Below are positions 20,752 to 30,908 of a DNA stretch of 32,742 nt, piece after piece; position 1 is the first letter of the stretch; each line of letters opens with the position of its first letter. The notes under the pieces are model-generated. The model was given only the letters and a program-made list of their open reading frames with translations. It was not told the DNA's origin and made no database searches. The stretch comes from a virus. The position numbers and the translations under genes were made by a program. The DNA lies in the IMG/VR virus record IMGVR_UViG_3300022696_000210, positions 1 through 32,742 of that record; one strand, given 5' to 3'.

Positions 20752-21483
20752 TTATTTTTTATCCGTATCATGGACTAATTCAGCCGCGTTAAGGAGTAGA
20801 TTAATAACTTCGTGGGGTGGGGTGTTGGTTGTTGCCCTATCGGGAAAAAATTTCAAAAGCTTAGTTTGCCTTGCCAATTCGCTTTCGGCCTCGGAACAGT
20901 GTACATTATCTTTCTCTCTGCGTCTCAACACCTGCATTCCAGGGATATATATGATAATCATCACTAATACCAAAATTAAGGCAGTTTTAAGCCCATGAGC
21001 AAACAGGAAAAAAGCCGGGATAAAAACTGTCATAGCCTGAAAAAAACGAATTAAATAATAGAAATAGTCATACTTTTTTTTAGTATATTTATTGGTAAGA
21101 TACTGTAGCCGGTGAATATGGACATGATTGATGTTTGGAAACCGGAAAACCATCATCCGGGTACATTTTGTAAGTTTTAGAAGAAAACTTACGAGTCTAT
21201 ATCCTTTTGGTTCCGCGCTTCCGAAGGTTCCGTTGACTCCATCAGTATGGACATGCATGATATGAGTTGAAGGGGTCTTAACTCCATGCCCCAGGGAAAT
21301 TAACCTACTTACCAAGTACCCTAAAAAACCACTTCCCCAGGTAGCAACAAAATCTCCCTTTTTAAGAACCGTCTGAAGTTTTGCGATTTTTTTCTTTGAC
21401 AGGGGAACTTGTTTCCTATTCCAGCGGACGAAGTCCCATAACACAAGAAGCACAAGAATCATTATAATATATAACTTTTCCAT
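20752..21483 (-). CDS. Membrane-anchored YiiX-like (permuted papain-fold) protein
   Basis: A 243-aa protein. Residues 4-18 are an N-terminal membrane anchor. The region 40-130 starts with KKGDFVATWGSG and contains THIMHVHTDG (His74, His77), the GD and SH-x-x parts of the permuted NlpC/P60 or YiiX family. After a KKYDYFYYL segment (the family's Y-D) come two membrane helices (about 141-183), then HCSEAE (Cys196), which corresponds to the family's catalytic C-S-E. These enzymes are predicted amidases, acyltransferases or lipid-directed cysteine hydrolases; the substrate here is unknown. The membrane hairpin inserted between Y-D and C-S-E is odd. A GGGAG ribosome site precedes it. It could act in lysis, in envelope modification or in host take-over. 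Confidence 0.65.
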   Translation of the reverse strand: MEKLYIIMILVLLVLWDFVRWNRKQVPLSKKKIAKLQTVLKKGDFVATWGSGFLGYLVSRLISLGHGVKTPSTHIMHVHTDGVNGTFGSAEPKGYRLVSFLLKLTKCTRMMVFRFPNINHVHIHRLQYLTNKYTKKKYDYFYYLIRFFQAMTVFIPAFFLFAHGLKTALILVLVMIIIYIPGMQVLRRREKDNVHCSEAESELARQTKLLKFFPDRATTNTPPHEVINLLLNAAELVHDTDKK

Positions 21484-21493
21484 CTCTTACTCC

Positions 21494-21880
21494 CTATTCC
21501 GGCGATTCCAATTCCTTTAGTTTTTTTTTGGCTCTTAACAAGCTAATTTCAGCAAGGAATTGCCCCCATTTTTCTTTACTCACTCGGACATAGTTGTCAC
21601 TATAAGGGATAGAGTCGGTACCCTCTGTATGTTCAATACCTAAGTCTATCCGTAATTCCTTTAGTCGTTCTTGCACGCTGTCCCAAAGTCTGGGGGTTAC
21701 GAGGTATGAATCCGGGTAGTCCGGTGTGGTAAGTATAAGCTCCCAGCTTTGTAATACGATTTCTTTTGATGAGCTACTACAGCTCATCATCAAGATTGAC
21801 AAGCTCATGAGTAATATTAGAAATACTCCCGTAACCCTGGATAGCATTTTCGATTTGTTGCAGTAATTTTTTGTGTTCAT
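21494..21880 (-). CDS. Small lipoprotein, candidate outer-membrane spanin
   Basis: A 128-aa protein with a basic N-terminus, a hydrophobic stretch (about 18-33) and a lipobox-like LMMSC (Cys34), followed by serines. The mature part is acidic and helical with a coiled-coil end (LLRAKKKLKELE). Lipoproteins in phage lysis cassettes of diderm hosts are often o-spanins (Rz1-like), though this one is longer and not Pro-rich. A GAGG site lies 7 nt before the ATG. Its first 35 codons overlap the 61-aa upstream gene in another frame (21777-21880), reminiscent of Rz/Rz1 overlap. Confidence 0.6.
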   Translation of the reverse strand: MNTKNYCNKSKMLSRVTGVFLILLMSLSILMMSCSSSSKEIVLQSWELILTTPDYPDSYLVTPRLWDSVQERLKELRIDLGIEHTEGTDSIPYSDNYVRVSKEKWGQFLAEISLLRAKKKLKELESPE

Positions 21881-22738: not shown

Positions 22739-22910
22739 ATTTTTCACATAATTTTGCTTGCCTTTCTCCACCTATGACAGAAATTTGTTGATTTTAGTCA
22801 TTGACAAAACCGATAAACAATACTATATTAATAAATTAGCAACCCACAAGGCTAAAACAATGACATTATTAAAAAAAGTTATAAATTTTATCAAAGGGAA
22901 TATAAAAAAA

Positions 22911-23000
22911 AGTCGGAAAACGACTAAAATCACAGGACTAAAAACCTATAAATGTACTAATATCGTAAAACTGTTTTTTAAAAAAAGTCGTTTTCCGACT
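22911..23000. repeat. 90-bp palindrome-bounded element, copy 1
   Basis: The element starts with AGTCGGAAAACGACT (22911-22925) and ends with its exact reverse complement (22986-23000); each end is itself a small hairpin. A-runs and T-runs flank the ends, extending the inverted repeat to about 20 bp with one indel. By eye it differs from copy 2 at about 10 of 90 positions. If read as protein, most differences change the amino acid, so it is not under coding constraint. Confidence 0.85.
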
Positions 23001-23006
23001 TTTTTT
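22980..23006 (+). terminator. Bidirectional hairpin with A/T-rich arms
   Basis: AAAAAAAGTCG (22980-22990) and CGACTTTTTTT (22996-23006) form an 11-bp perfect stem around a 5-nt TTTTC loop. Read on either strand it is a stem with a 3' U-run, so it could terminate in both directions. It lies between the divergent late and moron transcripts, at the right end of element copy 1. Confidence 0.6.
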
Positions 23007-23054
23007 ATAAGTAATAAAAAAAAGACGGCCGCTGGGAAGCCGGGGATTGATTTT

Positions 23055-23144
23055 GGTCGAAAAACGACTAAAATTACAGGACTAAAAACCTGGAAATGTA
23101 CTAATATCTTAAAATCGTTTTTTGAAAAAAGTCGTTTTCTGACT
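23055..23144. repeat. 90-bp palindrome-bounded element, copy 2
   Basis: Same length and layout as the copy at 22911-23000, offset by 144 bp: GGTCGAAAAACGACT (23055-23069) at the left and AGTCGTTTTCTGACT (23130-23144) at the right. The ends are slightly degraded relative to copy 1. Both lie in the gap between the late operon and the moron. Confidence 0.85.
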
Positions 23145-23177
23145 ATTTTCGCAAAAAGTGATATTGTTTTTTTTGGG

Positions 23178-23206
23178 TTGACAAAATCCTTAAAAAATCA
23201 TATTAT
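23178..23206 (+). promoter_or_regulatory. Near-consensus sigma70 promoter of the moron
   Basis: A perfect TTGACA (23178-23183), a 17-bp spacer and TATTAT (23201-23206) precede the secreted-protein gene, whose ATG lies about 40 nt after the expected start point and follows GGAGG (23243-23247). A promoter this close to consensus should be active without phage regulators, so the moron could be expressed in the lysogen. Confidence 0.8.
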
Positions 23207-23251
23207 TTTACATAAACAATTTAAATGGGTATGTAATATTTTGGAGGCGAT

Positions 23252-23908
23252 ATGAAAAAAATAATCTTAGCGATAATTATTATTAGTTTTATTAGCCCGT
23301 CTATTTTTTGTTATCTAACTAATAACAAATCTTGTGAAGCTTTTGTACCGGATGCATGTGATGATGAGACGGATAGTGTTGCGGATTTTACCCCCAATTT
23401 AGGTAAATTATTAATTGATGGAGGTAATTTTTTTCGAATGGGATTTGGTGATTTTCAATATTTCTTAGGTTGTTTAGAAAATTCCGAGGTATATAATATA
23501 AATTATCAGGATATGAGCAATTATCTAAAAAGGACCGAGGATAATATTTATACGGCCATTGTAATATACACCAGAATTATAACTTATTCACGAAGTGCTT
23601 ACTCTTATAATGAATATATAATTAATAAACTAAGACAATTCGATTACGACTCCTATCAAAAACAACATCGTTTAGACTATTCTATTTTTAAAAAAGTGCA
23701 ATACTATCTTAAACACGGGAATGTAATTGGGGCCTATGAATATTTTTTGTCAGAAATTTCTAACATAAAGCGTATATTGCTTGAAATAAAAAGACGTGTC
23801 GATGAAAAGAAAACTCCTGAAATAAGAAAGTGCTGGGTGTTAAACCAACAGTTCTCTAATATTTCTCTATTTTCACAATATATTTCTGAGGTTTTCATGA
23901 ACTTATAA
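23252..23908 (+). CDS. Secreted hypothetical protein of the moron
   Basis: A 218-aa protein with a signal peptide (about 1-19, KKIILAIIIISFISPSIF) and a mature part that is helical and rich in Tyr, Ile, Asn and Lys, with five Cys (20, 28, 36, 74, 194). Cys20 follows the hydrophobic core, but the preceding Phe argues against a standard lipobox. The start follows GGAGG. It lies 9 nt upstream of the ABC-like membrane gene, so the two are probably one operon. I do not recognise the family. It probably acts in the periplasm or outside the cell, perhaps as partner or cargo of its neighbour. Codon use is more AT-rich than in the structural genes. Confidence 0.8.
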   Translation: MKKIILAIIIISFISPSIFCYLTNNKSCEAFVPDACDDETDSVADFTPNLGKLLIDGGNFFRMGFGDFQYFLGCLENSEVYNINYQDMSNYLKRTEDNIYTAIVIYTRIITYSRSAYSYNEYIINKLRQFDYDSYQKQHRLDYSIFKKVQYYLKHGNVIGAYEYFLSEISNIKRILLEIKRRVDEKKTPEIRKCWVLNQQFSNISLFSQYISEVFMNL

Positions 23909-23917
23909 GGATTAAAT

Positions 23918-25720
23918 ATGGCAAAAATTTTCATGTTAACACTTTCCAGGGAAGGGAAAAAATTTTTAAACTGGAAATTTTTTATTATTTTTATTTTAAT
24001 TATTATTATATATTTTATACTTTTTTTTGATGGCACCAATAAGTATAACGATACTTTGAGAGAAAAAGATATCTTTTTAAAAAAAGAAAAATTAAAAGTA
24101 ACAAATTTATCTATGATCAGACAATATGCCGCTATGGGAATAAAGCTAATGTTTGTTCCTTCAAAATATAGTATCCTTCAAAATTATCCCAATACACTCT
24201 TAGCAGACATTGATACTGCTGACCGCTTAAATATATACAAATCAAACAAAGGGAGAAACTACATCAGGGGAGAAAATTTCCTTCAAGGAAGCAACTATAT
24301 GACATACCTCGGATTCACTTTTTTATTATTGGTGTTGTTTTCGATGTTATATGGTTTAAATCTTACTAAAAACAAAAAAAGATTAATGTTTCTCTCAACG
24401 AGTAAAAATGGAAATAAATTTTTTATTACAATGATATTTTCTAGAATTATTATTCTCTCCTTACTGTTTTTTTTAGTAATTACTATCCCCGTAATAGTAT
24501 TAAATCTAAGATTAATGCCTTTATTATATTTGATTCTAAAAACTTTTGTATTAATCCTATCCTGTTTTGCTATAGGTTCTATAATCGGGATTCTAAATGA
24601 GAAATTGTCGCTTTTATTGCTTCCAACTATTTATTTTATTTTAATTGTACTAGTACCAATCTTTTGTGATAAGGTTACCCATACATATGCTACATATGTA
24701 GAATCCTTGTCAAATTTTGAATTACATAACATGAATATTATTTTGAAAGCAGAAAAAGAATTACTCGAGAACTTTGGGACTCTAAAACCAGGTGAAACCA
24801 GAAATGAAATTCAAAAAGCTGTAAAAGAAGCAATTGAGAACCAACACCTACAAATAGAAAACAGAGAAAAAAAATTTTTAGATTCAACGGTCAGACAAAT
24901 GAGGAAACGCTCTTTGATAAGTTCTCTTTTTCCTACGACATCGTATTTAGATTTTATAAATGAAATAACGGGGCAGGGAGTAATATCATATAAGAATTTT
25001 TGTTTATTTACATTGACGCGAAAAAAAGAATTTATCGATTATTATTTTCGAAATAGGTTTACAAAAGAAAAAATCAATAAATCCGAAATACAGAGAGTAT
25101 TACCATTTATTAATAAAGATAATGCTTTTTATTATTCTAAAAGTACTAATCCTTCATTTAATTTATTTTCAATTGCGATTTCCTTTATATATTTTTTAAT
25201 CCCGATGATTTTTGTTTTCAGTAAATTTCGAAATCTTGTAAATAAAAATAGAAATGTTGGAATTAATAAAGAAATACCCGAAGGGCAACTAATATATTAT
25301 CAATATAATTTAAGGGAAACTGACACATCATCGATCCTAAAATTTTTATTTGATAAAGAACTAATAAAAGAAAGGGCTATTTATCTGCCTAATCCTTCAG
25401 AAATAGACCTTTCAAAAAAATCAATTGCGGTATGCATGAATATTGATGAAAAAGTTTTAAATGAGTTCCCTGTCTGGAAGATATTAATAACAGGAGCTTT
25501 AGAGAAAAGTAAAGTAATAATCGGTGACGGTTTTCTTAATGATTTAGATGAAGGTGAAGAAAAAAGTATTATTTATGAACTTAAATCAACTTTACAAAAG
25601 AAAGAGGGCGTTTTTATTGAAATCGGCAGAAATAGATATATAGCAAGTTTTTTTGACAATAAGATATCCGATAAGGATGAGATAAAAGAATATAAAAAAT
25701 TATTTAGTAAAAAACTTTAA
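23918..25720 (+). CDS. ABC-2-like membrane protein with degenerate ABC ATPase-like C-terminus
   Basis: A 600-aa protein with six predicted membrane spans (about 17-36, 127-148, 166-190, 198-225, 229-250, 415-437) and large extracytoplasmic loops after spans 1 and 5, as in ABC-2 (GldF/DUF3526-like) exporters. Residues about 450-585 read like a shrunken ABC ATPase. NLRETDTSSILKFL (464-477) stands where N-G-A-G-K-T-T-L-L normally does. LNEFPVWKILITGAL (514-528) stands for LSGGQ plus the following helix. VIIGDG (533-538) stands for Walker B, NDLD (541-544) for the D-loop, and IEIGRN (567-572) for the H-loop. Walker A Lys, signature, catalytic Glu and H-loop His all appear lost. The similarity is judged by eye. 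No ATPase gene lies nearby. It could be a receptor, scaffold or exclusion protein rather than a pump. Confidence 0.7.
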   Translation: MAKIFMLTLSREGKKFLNWKFFIIFILIIIIYFILFFDGTNKYNDTLREKDIFLKKEKLKVTNLSMIRQYAAMGIKLMFVPSKYSILQNYPNTLLADIDTADRLNIYKSNKGRNYIRGENFLQGSNYMTYLGFTFLLLVLFSMLYGLNLTKNKKRLMFLSTSKNGNKFFITMIFSRIIILSLLFFLVITIPVIVLNLRLMPLLYLILKTFVLILSCFAIGSIIGILNEKLSLLLLPTIYFILIVLVPIFCDKVTHTYATYVESLSNFELHNMNIILKAEKELLENFGTLKPGETRNEIQKAVKEAIENQHLQIENREKKFLDSTVRQMRKRSLISSLFPTTSYLDFINEITGQGVISYKNFCLFTLTRKKEFIDYYFRNRFTKEKINKSEIQRVLPFINKDNAFYYSKSTNPSFNLFSIAISFIYFLIPMIFVFSKFRNLVNKNRNVGINKEIPEGQLIYYQYNLRETDTSSILKFLFDKELIKERAIYLPNPSEIDLSKKSIAVCMNIDEKVLNEFPVWKILITGALEKSKVIIGDGFLNDLDEGEEKSIIYELKSTLQKKEGVFIEIGRNRYIASFFDNKISDKDEIKEYKKLFSKKL

Positions 25721-26091
25721 GTTTCATCCGCAAGTGCCATTATTGGTTTTAACTCAGACAATACATACTTTTTAAAATCAGGATATTTAAGCATAAGTGT
25801 GGCTAAATAATCAATATCTGAATCACCAGTATAAATTTTTGACATATGTAGTGAAATAATATTATCCACTTTTTTCTCTTTTTTCTTATTTGCCTTCTTA
25901 AGATTATCAATCTGAGCCTTAAATCCAGAAATAATGTACTCCCAAGTATGTTTTATAACATTAAATATTCTTGGGTCTTTACTAAAAAACTCAAGGTCAT
26001 CTAAAATTTGCTCACATTGATGATCAGTTAAATCACCCCGATAACTTGATGGATGCGTTACTACATTTGAACGGTCTACGATAGAATTCAT
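25717..26091 (-). CDS. Hypothetical protein co-transcribed with the repressor
   Basis: A 124-aa protein 11 nt downstream of the repressor stop, with a GAGGTAAATA site before its ATG. The C-terminus overlaps the end of the convergent membrane protein gene by 4 nt. It is mostly helical with a Lys-rich stretch (NLKKANKKKEKKVDN, about 79-93). There is no signal peptide or membrane segment. I do not recognise the family. Genes in an operon with the repressor are expressed in the lysogen and often protect against superinfection or adjust lysogeny. That role is inferred from position only. Confidence 0.75.
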   Translation of the reverse strand: MNSIVDRSNVVTHPSSYRGDLTDHQCEQILDDLEFFSKDPRIFNVIKHTWEYIISGFKAQIDNLKKANKKKEKKVDNIISLHMSKIYTGDSDIDYLATLMLKYPDFKKYVLSELKPIMALADET

Positions 26092-26102
26092 TATTTACCT
26101 CA

Positions 26103-26564
26103 TTAGGCACCTCCCACTTTTACCGATTTATTTAGATGATTTTCCCCTTCTTTATCCGATTGAAAAAGATGTGGTAACTCTACTTTTGCAACTTCTAATG
26201 CAATTGCAAATTTGTGCCTCATTGCTTTGCTAAGTTTAGGATTTGCGAGTACCTCATATATTTCAAAAAACGTTTCATCCAGTTTTATATTAGGAAAGAG
26301 TTTTTTTATAAGACTGATTTTATCATTATTATTAAAATTGTTATTAAACATTTCTCCATTGCCAGTAATTAACCAATGAAAATTTAATTTATACCTGTTG
26401 TGCAAATATTCCAAAATCAAAAAATTCGGGAATATTTCTCCTCTCTCAATTCGCGCAATATTCGAATGACTAACATTTGCCTCTTTAGATAGTTGTATTA
26501 ATGTTTTATCAATCATTTTTCGAAACATATTAATACGAGTACCTATTTCTTTTTTATCAGCCAT
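26103..26564 (-). CDS. XRE-family (HTH_3) lysogeny repressor
   Basis: A 153-aa protein with an N-terminal HTH_3 domain (residues 5-60): IGTRINMFRKMIDKTLIQLS, then the recognition helix region in NVSHSNIARIERGEIFPN. The C-terminal half is helical and probably dimerises. There is no S24 peptidase domain, so it is not cleaved like lambda CI; induction would have to work by another route, such as an antirepressor. It diverges from the early operon, the usual place for the repressor, and palindromes lie between the two starts. GGAG sits 5 nt before the ATG. Confidence 0.85.
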   Translation of the reverse strand: MADKKEIGTRINMFRKMIDKTLIQLSKEANVSHSNIARIERGEIFPNFLILEYLHNRYKLNFHWLITGNGEMFNNNFNNNDKISLIKKLFPNIKLDETFFEIYEVLANPKLSKAMRHKFAIALEVAKVELPHLFQSDKEGENHLNKSVKVGGA

Positions 26565-26613: not shown

Positions 26614-26627
26614 AATTGTTGACAATT
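26614..26627. promoter_or_regulatory. Palindromic operator AATTGTTGACAATT
   Basis: A 14-bp inverted repeat: AATTGT, 2 bp, ACAATT. It contains the whole TTGACA -35 box of the early promoter. A dimeric repressor bound here would block RNA polymerase. It lies between the divergent repressor and early genes. Confidence 0.7.
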
Positions 26628-30254: not shown

Positions 30255-30908
30255 ATGGCAAGAATAGATAATGAGGGCAATTGGATTGACCCCAAAGGGA
30301 ACGCTATTCCAAAGAAATATGTCAAGCCAATAGATAAAAAAAGAGACCGAGTTGTAGAAAATTTTGTAAAAAAATGGCAAAAACTTCAAGAAGACCTTGC
30401 CCAATTTAAAGCAGAGTTGATAGAGGGTTTTGAAGATTACACAGCTTTTGTTTTAGCCGAATCCGGCGCTAAAATTGGAGGCGTTAAAGGTAATGTGACT
30501 TTAACAAATTTCTCAGCAACCTGGAAAATAGAGCGGGCGAAGAGTGAATTTATTGAATTTGATGAAAGAATTAATATTGTTAAAACAATAATTGAAGCTT
30601 GTATAAAAAAATGGTCCAAAGATGTGGTTTCCCCTATTAAACCAATTGTTGAGAAAGTCTTTGAAGTCGATCACAAGGGGCGGATGAATATAAAAGGGCT
30701 AAAATCCCTTAAAGAACTAAACATTAAAGACCAGCAATGGCAAAGGGCTATGGAAATACTTGATGAAGCGGAAAAAGTTACAGGGACTAAGACTTATTTT
30801 AGGGTTTATGAGCGTAAAGGCCCGGAAGATAACTGGAAACACCATACCCTTGACTTTGCAAATATCCTTCCGAGAAAGAAAAAATCAAGTAAAAAGGTGA
30901 AGAAATGA
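30255..30908 (+). CDS. DUF3164 protein
   Basis: A 217-aa protein with a family-like start (DNEGNWIDPKGNAIPKKYV, i.e. W-x-D-x-x-G-x-x-x-P) followed by K-R-D-R-V-V and long helices (VKKWQKLQEDLAQFKAELIE). The conserved central strand KGNVTLTNFSATWKI and a DERI segment complete the DUF3164 pattern. This family is common in Mu-like transposable phages next to Gam; its function is not known to me. Basic end (PRKKKSSKKVKK). AAAGGAGG precedes the ATG. It is the first gene after the structured gap. Confidence 0.8.
   Translation: MARIDNEGNWIDPKGNAIPKKYVKPIDKKRDRVVENFVKKWQKLQEDLAQFKAELIEGFEDYTAFVLAESGAKIGGVKGNVTLTNFSATWKIERAKSEFIEFDERINIVKTIIEACIKKWSKDVVSPIKPIVEKVFEVDHKGRMNIKGLKSLKELNIKDQQWQRAMEILDEAEKVTGTKTYFRVYERKGPEDNWKHHTLDFANILPRKKKSSKKVKK

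Follow-up and report, generated by a model that had tools for sequence, protein, structure and literature searches.

In ABC-2 exporters both the permeases and the ATPases act in dimeric form, and in ABC exporters the loop after the second membrane span faces the ATPase. The DUF3526 or NosY/GldF-type permeases (PF12040 and relatives) have six spans, with large loops between spans 1 and 2 and between spans 5 and 6, and prolines conserved behind span 5 and ahead of the last loop segment. Accessory genes next to a repressor are described from transposable phages: the Mu-like phages studied in Pseudomonas carry such accessory regions (PMC4378225), and in the Mu-like phage Fc02 an exclusion gene lies on the repressor transcript and an accessory gene sits beside the repressor (PMC9936078). 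Here we describe a gene for a 600-aa membrane protein (23918..25720, plus strand) with the layout of a DUF3526-type ABC-2 permease and a C-terminal tail resembling an ABC nucleotide-binding domain (NBD). It lies in a window of 32,742 nucleotides, the whole stretch of DNA analysed, which is a 32.7-kb IMG/VR virus record (IMGVR_UViG_3300022696_000210) classed as linear that may be a fragment. Judged from its sequence, what appears to be new is prophage cargo in the form of an ABC-2 permease whose tail is ATPase-like but degenerate; no described system like a permease with such a tail was found in the open-access literature searched.

The open reading frame at 23918-25720 is real. It runs for 600 codons from an ATG with a ribosome-binding site (TAAGGATTAAATATG), and it starts 9 bp past the end of a 218-aa gene, whereas the longest open run in composition-matched shuffled DNA was 123 codons (500 trials). 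As for the element that carries it, we conclude from sequence comparison that the record represents a Mu-like transposable phage, because it encodes a DUF3164 protein, a marker of such phages (30255..30908, plus strand; Pfam E 3.7e-58), because its cI/DicA-like repressor (26103..26564, minus strand) runs against an early operon that has a perfect sigma-70 promoter match at 26619, and because its TerL has matches in related prophages that carry transposase and AAA genes. The record also carries terminase, portal and tail-tube genes. The terminase shows about 24-31% identity to Vibrio and Staphylococcus phages, and has five near-full-length matches (26-29%) in 398 genomes of the phylum of Pectinatus (G015), and its best matches in Spirochaetota prophages, with TerL matches in 12 of 247 Spirochaetota genomes (29-35%, E to 9e-70), most with an adjoining portal match. 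The related Spirochaetota prophages have an integrase-core transposase, its AAA partner, DUF3164 and an HTH repressor, identified by Pfam in one of them (L166); the transposase A and B genes of these prophages were not seen in our record, which is linear and may be a fragment. The sequence evidence makes a host in Spirochaetota most likely. About 5% of the sampled Spirochaetota genomes, and less than 2% of those from the phylum of Pectinatus, contained Mu-like prophages with this terminase type (L144-L158, L171-L177). Elsewhere in the record, we observed a 243-aa protein in the lysis region (20752-21483) that weakly matches a permuted papain-like enzyme of the YaeF type, an adjoining lipoprotein (21494-21880) that may be a spanin, and, at the far end, an AT-rich (29% GC) gene for a D12-class adenine methyltransferase (406-1182).

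By its genomic context the 600-aa protein is prophage accessory cargo, since it lies in a slot beside the repressor, has its own promoter-like site and a low GC content, and is replaced by unrelated genes in sister prophages. The 218-aa and 600-aa genes sit between the repressor, which marks the slot, and the lysis and packaging genes, on the strand opposite to the repressor, with a 124-aa gene downstream of the repressor (25717..26091, minus strand) convergent with the permease gene and overlapping it by 4 bp. Their GC content is 29% and 27%, against 38% for the whole record. What lies between the repressor and the holin and terminase genes differs from one related prophage to the next: genes of 362 and 497 aa in L166 (5604-8190), an NA37 nucleoid-associated protein with a membrane protein in L161 (7489-9802), genes of 267 and 330 aa in L163 (13718-15473), a two-span protein in L159 (8115-8909), and in L167 (9964-11983) a DUF5131 protein with its partner, which PADLOC flags as the candidate defence pair PDC-M30 (E 1e-105 and 5e-22). 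This last pair is, like the 218-aa and 600-aa genes, a two-gene cargo in the same slot, but its proteins are unrelated to ours; as far as annotation goes, the slot cargo of Mu-like Spirochaetota prophages is mostly uncharacterised. The accessory (moron/RGP) genes of Pseudomonas Mu-like phages, including the exclusion genes olg1 and gene 10 of Fc02/Ps56 (PMC9936078, PMC4378225), also lie beside the repressor, and like them our locus is AT-rich (27-29% GC against 38%) and has its own promoter-like site. They encode small proteins of another kind.

The gene just upstream (23252..23908, plus strand) is the first of a two-gene operon and encodes the 218-aa protein, with a signal peptide and a possible lipidation site at Cys20; searches of profile libraries placed it in no family, and no homologue was found in the collections searched. 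It is preceded, 46 nt to its 5' side, by a sigma-70-like site TTGACA-17-TATTAT (23178..23206, plus strand; 11 of 12 positions), and in the region as a whole there are three promoter-like sites matching at least 11 of 12 positions, against 0.36 expected, a number that none of 200 shuffles gave. The strong promoter and the secreted partner proposed in the sequence-only reading were thus both found, the promoter as a predicted site. A second sigma-70-like site (22801..22829, plus strand; 11/12) reads into two 94-nt tandem repeats (22905..23149, no strand assigned; 89% alike, spacing 144), which lie between two strong promoter-like sites and contain four AGTCG-N5-CGACT dyads, two exact and two with one mismatch. 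The first repeat has a perfect 21-nt inverted repeat that encloses a 60-nt loop and ends in a T-run (fold z-score -4.9). The repeats might function as a small RNA, as an attenuator or as an array of operators. They belong to no Rfam family; the Rfam matches that did arise (plant miRNAs and similar) were rejected as far under the gathering scores. An open reading frame across the repeats (22758-23255) was also rejected as a gene: it has no ribosome-binding site, and the differences between the repeat copies show no bias towards the third codon position.

The permease part comprises residues 1-436 (23918..25225, plus strand), as delimited by hydropathy, family spacing and alignment. Its six hydrophobic segments start at residues 21, 131, 177, 205, 232 and 416, with intervening loops of 91, 27, 9, 8 and 165 residues, and in an example DUF3526-type permease the segments start at 14, 130, 179, 210, 237 and 421, with loops of 97, 30, 12, 8 and 165. 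The comparison permeases were DUF3526-type ABC-2 permeases of Bacteroidota found through PF12040, and among 103 membrane open reading frames only members of this family shared the six-span pattern with large loops at the family spacing; the conserved prolines are likewise common to both. A profile of nine family permeases gave the 600-aa protein 4.6 bits, against 2.5 for the best non-family membrane frame, and 3 of 500 block shuffles scored above it. At the level of sequence the two are much further apart: the alignment has 12-19% identity, Pfam model PF12040 was not matched even with E values up to 10 allowed, the E[KR]ExG motif that follows span 2 in all nine family permeases is absent (a loss that the sequence-only reading had not noted), and the loop between spans 2 and 3 is shortened. 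The six spans of ABC-2 type that had been read from the sequence are therefore present and can be narrowed to a predicted DUF3526-type (NosY/GldF-like) layout, for which the agreement in spacing is strong and that in sequence weak. The protein also differs from these permeases in being a single permease with no neighbouring ATPase, a search of the rest of the record having found no ABC ATPase-like protein, in line with what had been claimed, and in the tail it adds. Complete family permeases end 5-13 residues past the last span, whereas the 600-aa protein runs 166 residues further (one permease, L111, cut by its contig end, was left out of this comparison).

This tail, predicted to be cytosolic (residues 437-600; 25226..25717, plus strand; only low-confidence models), is weakly NBD-like and has no ATP motifs. 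The sequence-only reading had seen in it the motif order of an ABC ATPase with each motif altered, and all of the strings quoted are indeed present in that order: NLRETDTSSILKFL at residues 464-477, LNEFPVWKILITGAL at 514-528, VIIGDG at 533-538, NDLD at 541-544 and IEIGRN at 567-572. No string carries the consensus of the motif assigned to it, and Walker A, the signature, the Walker B glutamate and the H-loop histidine are missing from the proposed positions. Scored alone against an NBD profile built from 40 ABC ATPases, the tail reached 8.1 bits over a single stretch of 41 residues (527-567; 25496..25618, plus strand), which falls on Walker B, the D-loop and the helix and strand that follow; the Walker B and D-loop part of the proposed order is thus aligned, and the assignments of Walker A-, signature- and H-loop-like segments, left unaligned, are conjecture. 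Only 3 of 12,000 shuffles reached this score (2 of 2,000 in one run and 1 of 10,000 in another), and the protein has the top NBD-profile score of the 45 proteins in the window. Among real windows 55 of 2,377 scored as high, 49 of them in frames with a Walker A motif, and five of the remaining six look by eye like P-loop proteins (FliI-like, PrfC-like), leaving 1 of about 2,320 non-P-loop windows. These figures belong to a hypothesis that was suggested by reading the sequence, and a blind search of thousands of profiles would not flag the match. The proposed NBD similarity was thus seen in part, and weakly, with the home-built profile; no match to the protein came from Pfam, NCBIfam, PHROGs, PADLOC or the PDB sequences. 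When hhalign was used to align the tail globally with the NBD profile, nothing meaningful resulted, and AlphaFold2, run on the single sequence without relatives, returned a pLDDT of 37 (tail) and of 41.5 (whole protein), too poor to show a fold. As a side observation, an ABC ATPase (L102) aligned on the same stretch of the tail, a weak match at the level of chance that is suggestive only post hoc.

In comparison with the ABC ATPase domain (PF00005), then, the tail shares a weak profile match at Walker B and the D-loop, but it lacks Walker A, the signature, the catalytic glutamate and the H-loop histidine, and it is too short (about 140 residues against 215) and unmatched by Pfam. On this sequence evidence we lean, by a little, towards an ABC origin. 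The alternative, which we consider doubtful but which is compatible with other readings of the protein, is that the tail is an unrelated cytosolic alpha/beta domain whose motif likeness is coincidental. The missing library match fits such a domain, as do the confinement of the alignment to 41 residues and the unsupported signature and Walker A assignments, and an empirical probability near 3 in 10,000 is unremarkable when there are thousands of families to compare. Against this, the aligned residues match Walker B, the D-loop and the strand after them in the correct register, equally high scores come almost entirely from windows of P-loop proteins, and an ABC-2 permease would be expected to have an ABC ATPase as its partner; at one locus (L109) the ABC ATPase gene follows and overlaps the permease gene. 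The notion of a prophage permease with a dead-ATPase-like tail has survived testing, with the permease now more precisely named and the tail as its weaker half.

Neither the whole protein nor its parts found a relative above chance in IMG/VR, phage and plasmid records or GTDB contigs, nor in the 398 genomes of the phylum of Pectinatus, and the seven weak matches in 393 Spirochaetota genomes, the L102 ATPase among them, are about the number expected by chance. Within these collections the protein is without detectable sequence relatives, so the conservation of its losses has nothing to be compared with. An origin of the permease from the presumed host was also considered and rejected, as 247 Spirochaetota genomes held no DUF3526 match.

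We propose that the gene is accessory cargo, with its own promoter and an exported partner, placed between the repressor and the lysis and packaging genes, and that its product would be a DUF3526-type ABC-2 permease fused to a cytosolic domain that is probably a decayed ABC ATPase domain. Each half has lost elements connected with ATP-driven transport, the tail its ATP motifs and the permease E[KR]ExG, and because of these two losses the protein is most likely no ATP pump. Its position, its promoter and the cargo of sister prophages suggest a function in the lysogen, where it would be made together with the 218-aa exported protein. Located in the inner membrane, it would serve exclusion or defence, perhaps by keeping DNA from entering or through an effect on some component of the host envelope. 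The open reading frame, the permease layout, the promoter-like sites, the cargo slot and the absence of the motifs are shown by the sequence, whereas descent of the tail from an NBD, production in the lysogen, loss of transport and a role in exclusion are our inferences. A role in exclusion or defence is preferred since this is a common role of such cargo, and by this analogy a non-transporting permease used with a secreted partner for that purpose is the reading we favour tentatively, at less than even confidence. Its more specific form, in which permease and pseudo-ATPase make an ATP-independent membrane gate or sensor with the exported partner, and so a new class of prophage exclusion or defence factor, we hold to be unlikely as it stands. 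The exclusion factor first suggested from the sequence gains some support, as a candidate role, from the slot position and from the one related prophage with a candidate defence pair there. Counting against it, on present sequence evidence, neither protein of the pair has a homologue in the collections searched, the NBD match is one 41-residue stretch, the permease match is weak in sequence, the structure models are of no use, and the cargo of related prophages mostly has no assigned function.

The same reading had offered a decoy, sensor or dominant partner, which would pair with a host ABC-2 permease or ATPase and poison or redirect a host exporter, and we regard this too as rather unlikely. 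Given that ABC-2 exporters are dimeric, a permease with a dead ATPase could poison the complex, and related ABC-2 permeases are widespread in Spirochaetota, an ABC-2 profile having matched 160 of 393 genomes. A dominant partner should, however, resemble its target, and the family's E[KR]ExG is lost, no close host counterpart scored above chance in the 393 genomes and the 247 gave no DUF3526 match. A working exporter that exports or flips a substrate and borrows its ATPase from the host, with the tail serving only for docking or regulation and the 218-aa protein as substrate or partner (as in bacteriocin or lipoprotein export), seems improbable: the operon does have the gene for an exported protein directly before that of the permease, and the protein retains both of the large loops that are typical of the family, but the record has no ATPase gene, E[KR]ExG is missing, and there is one permease only where family examples (L105, L107, L108) have two in tandem. 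Finally, a transporter gene that the phage acquired and that is now in decay and functionless would account for the missing ATP motifs, the shortened loop between spans 2 and 3 and the want of relatives, but is equally hard to credit in view of the intact 600-codon frame, the strong promoter-like site, the ribosome-binding site and the close spacing to the upstream gene, and phage genomes usually shed stretches of this size that serve no purpose.

If the tail is a pseudo-ATPase, the protein would be a phage-borne ABC half-exporter that has taken on a role other than pumping, and a candidate for a new mechanism of exclusion. The work also points to the repressor-side slot of Mu-like prophages in Spirochaetota as a place whose contents can be tested for defence.
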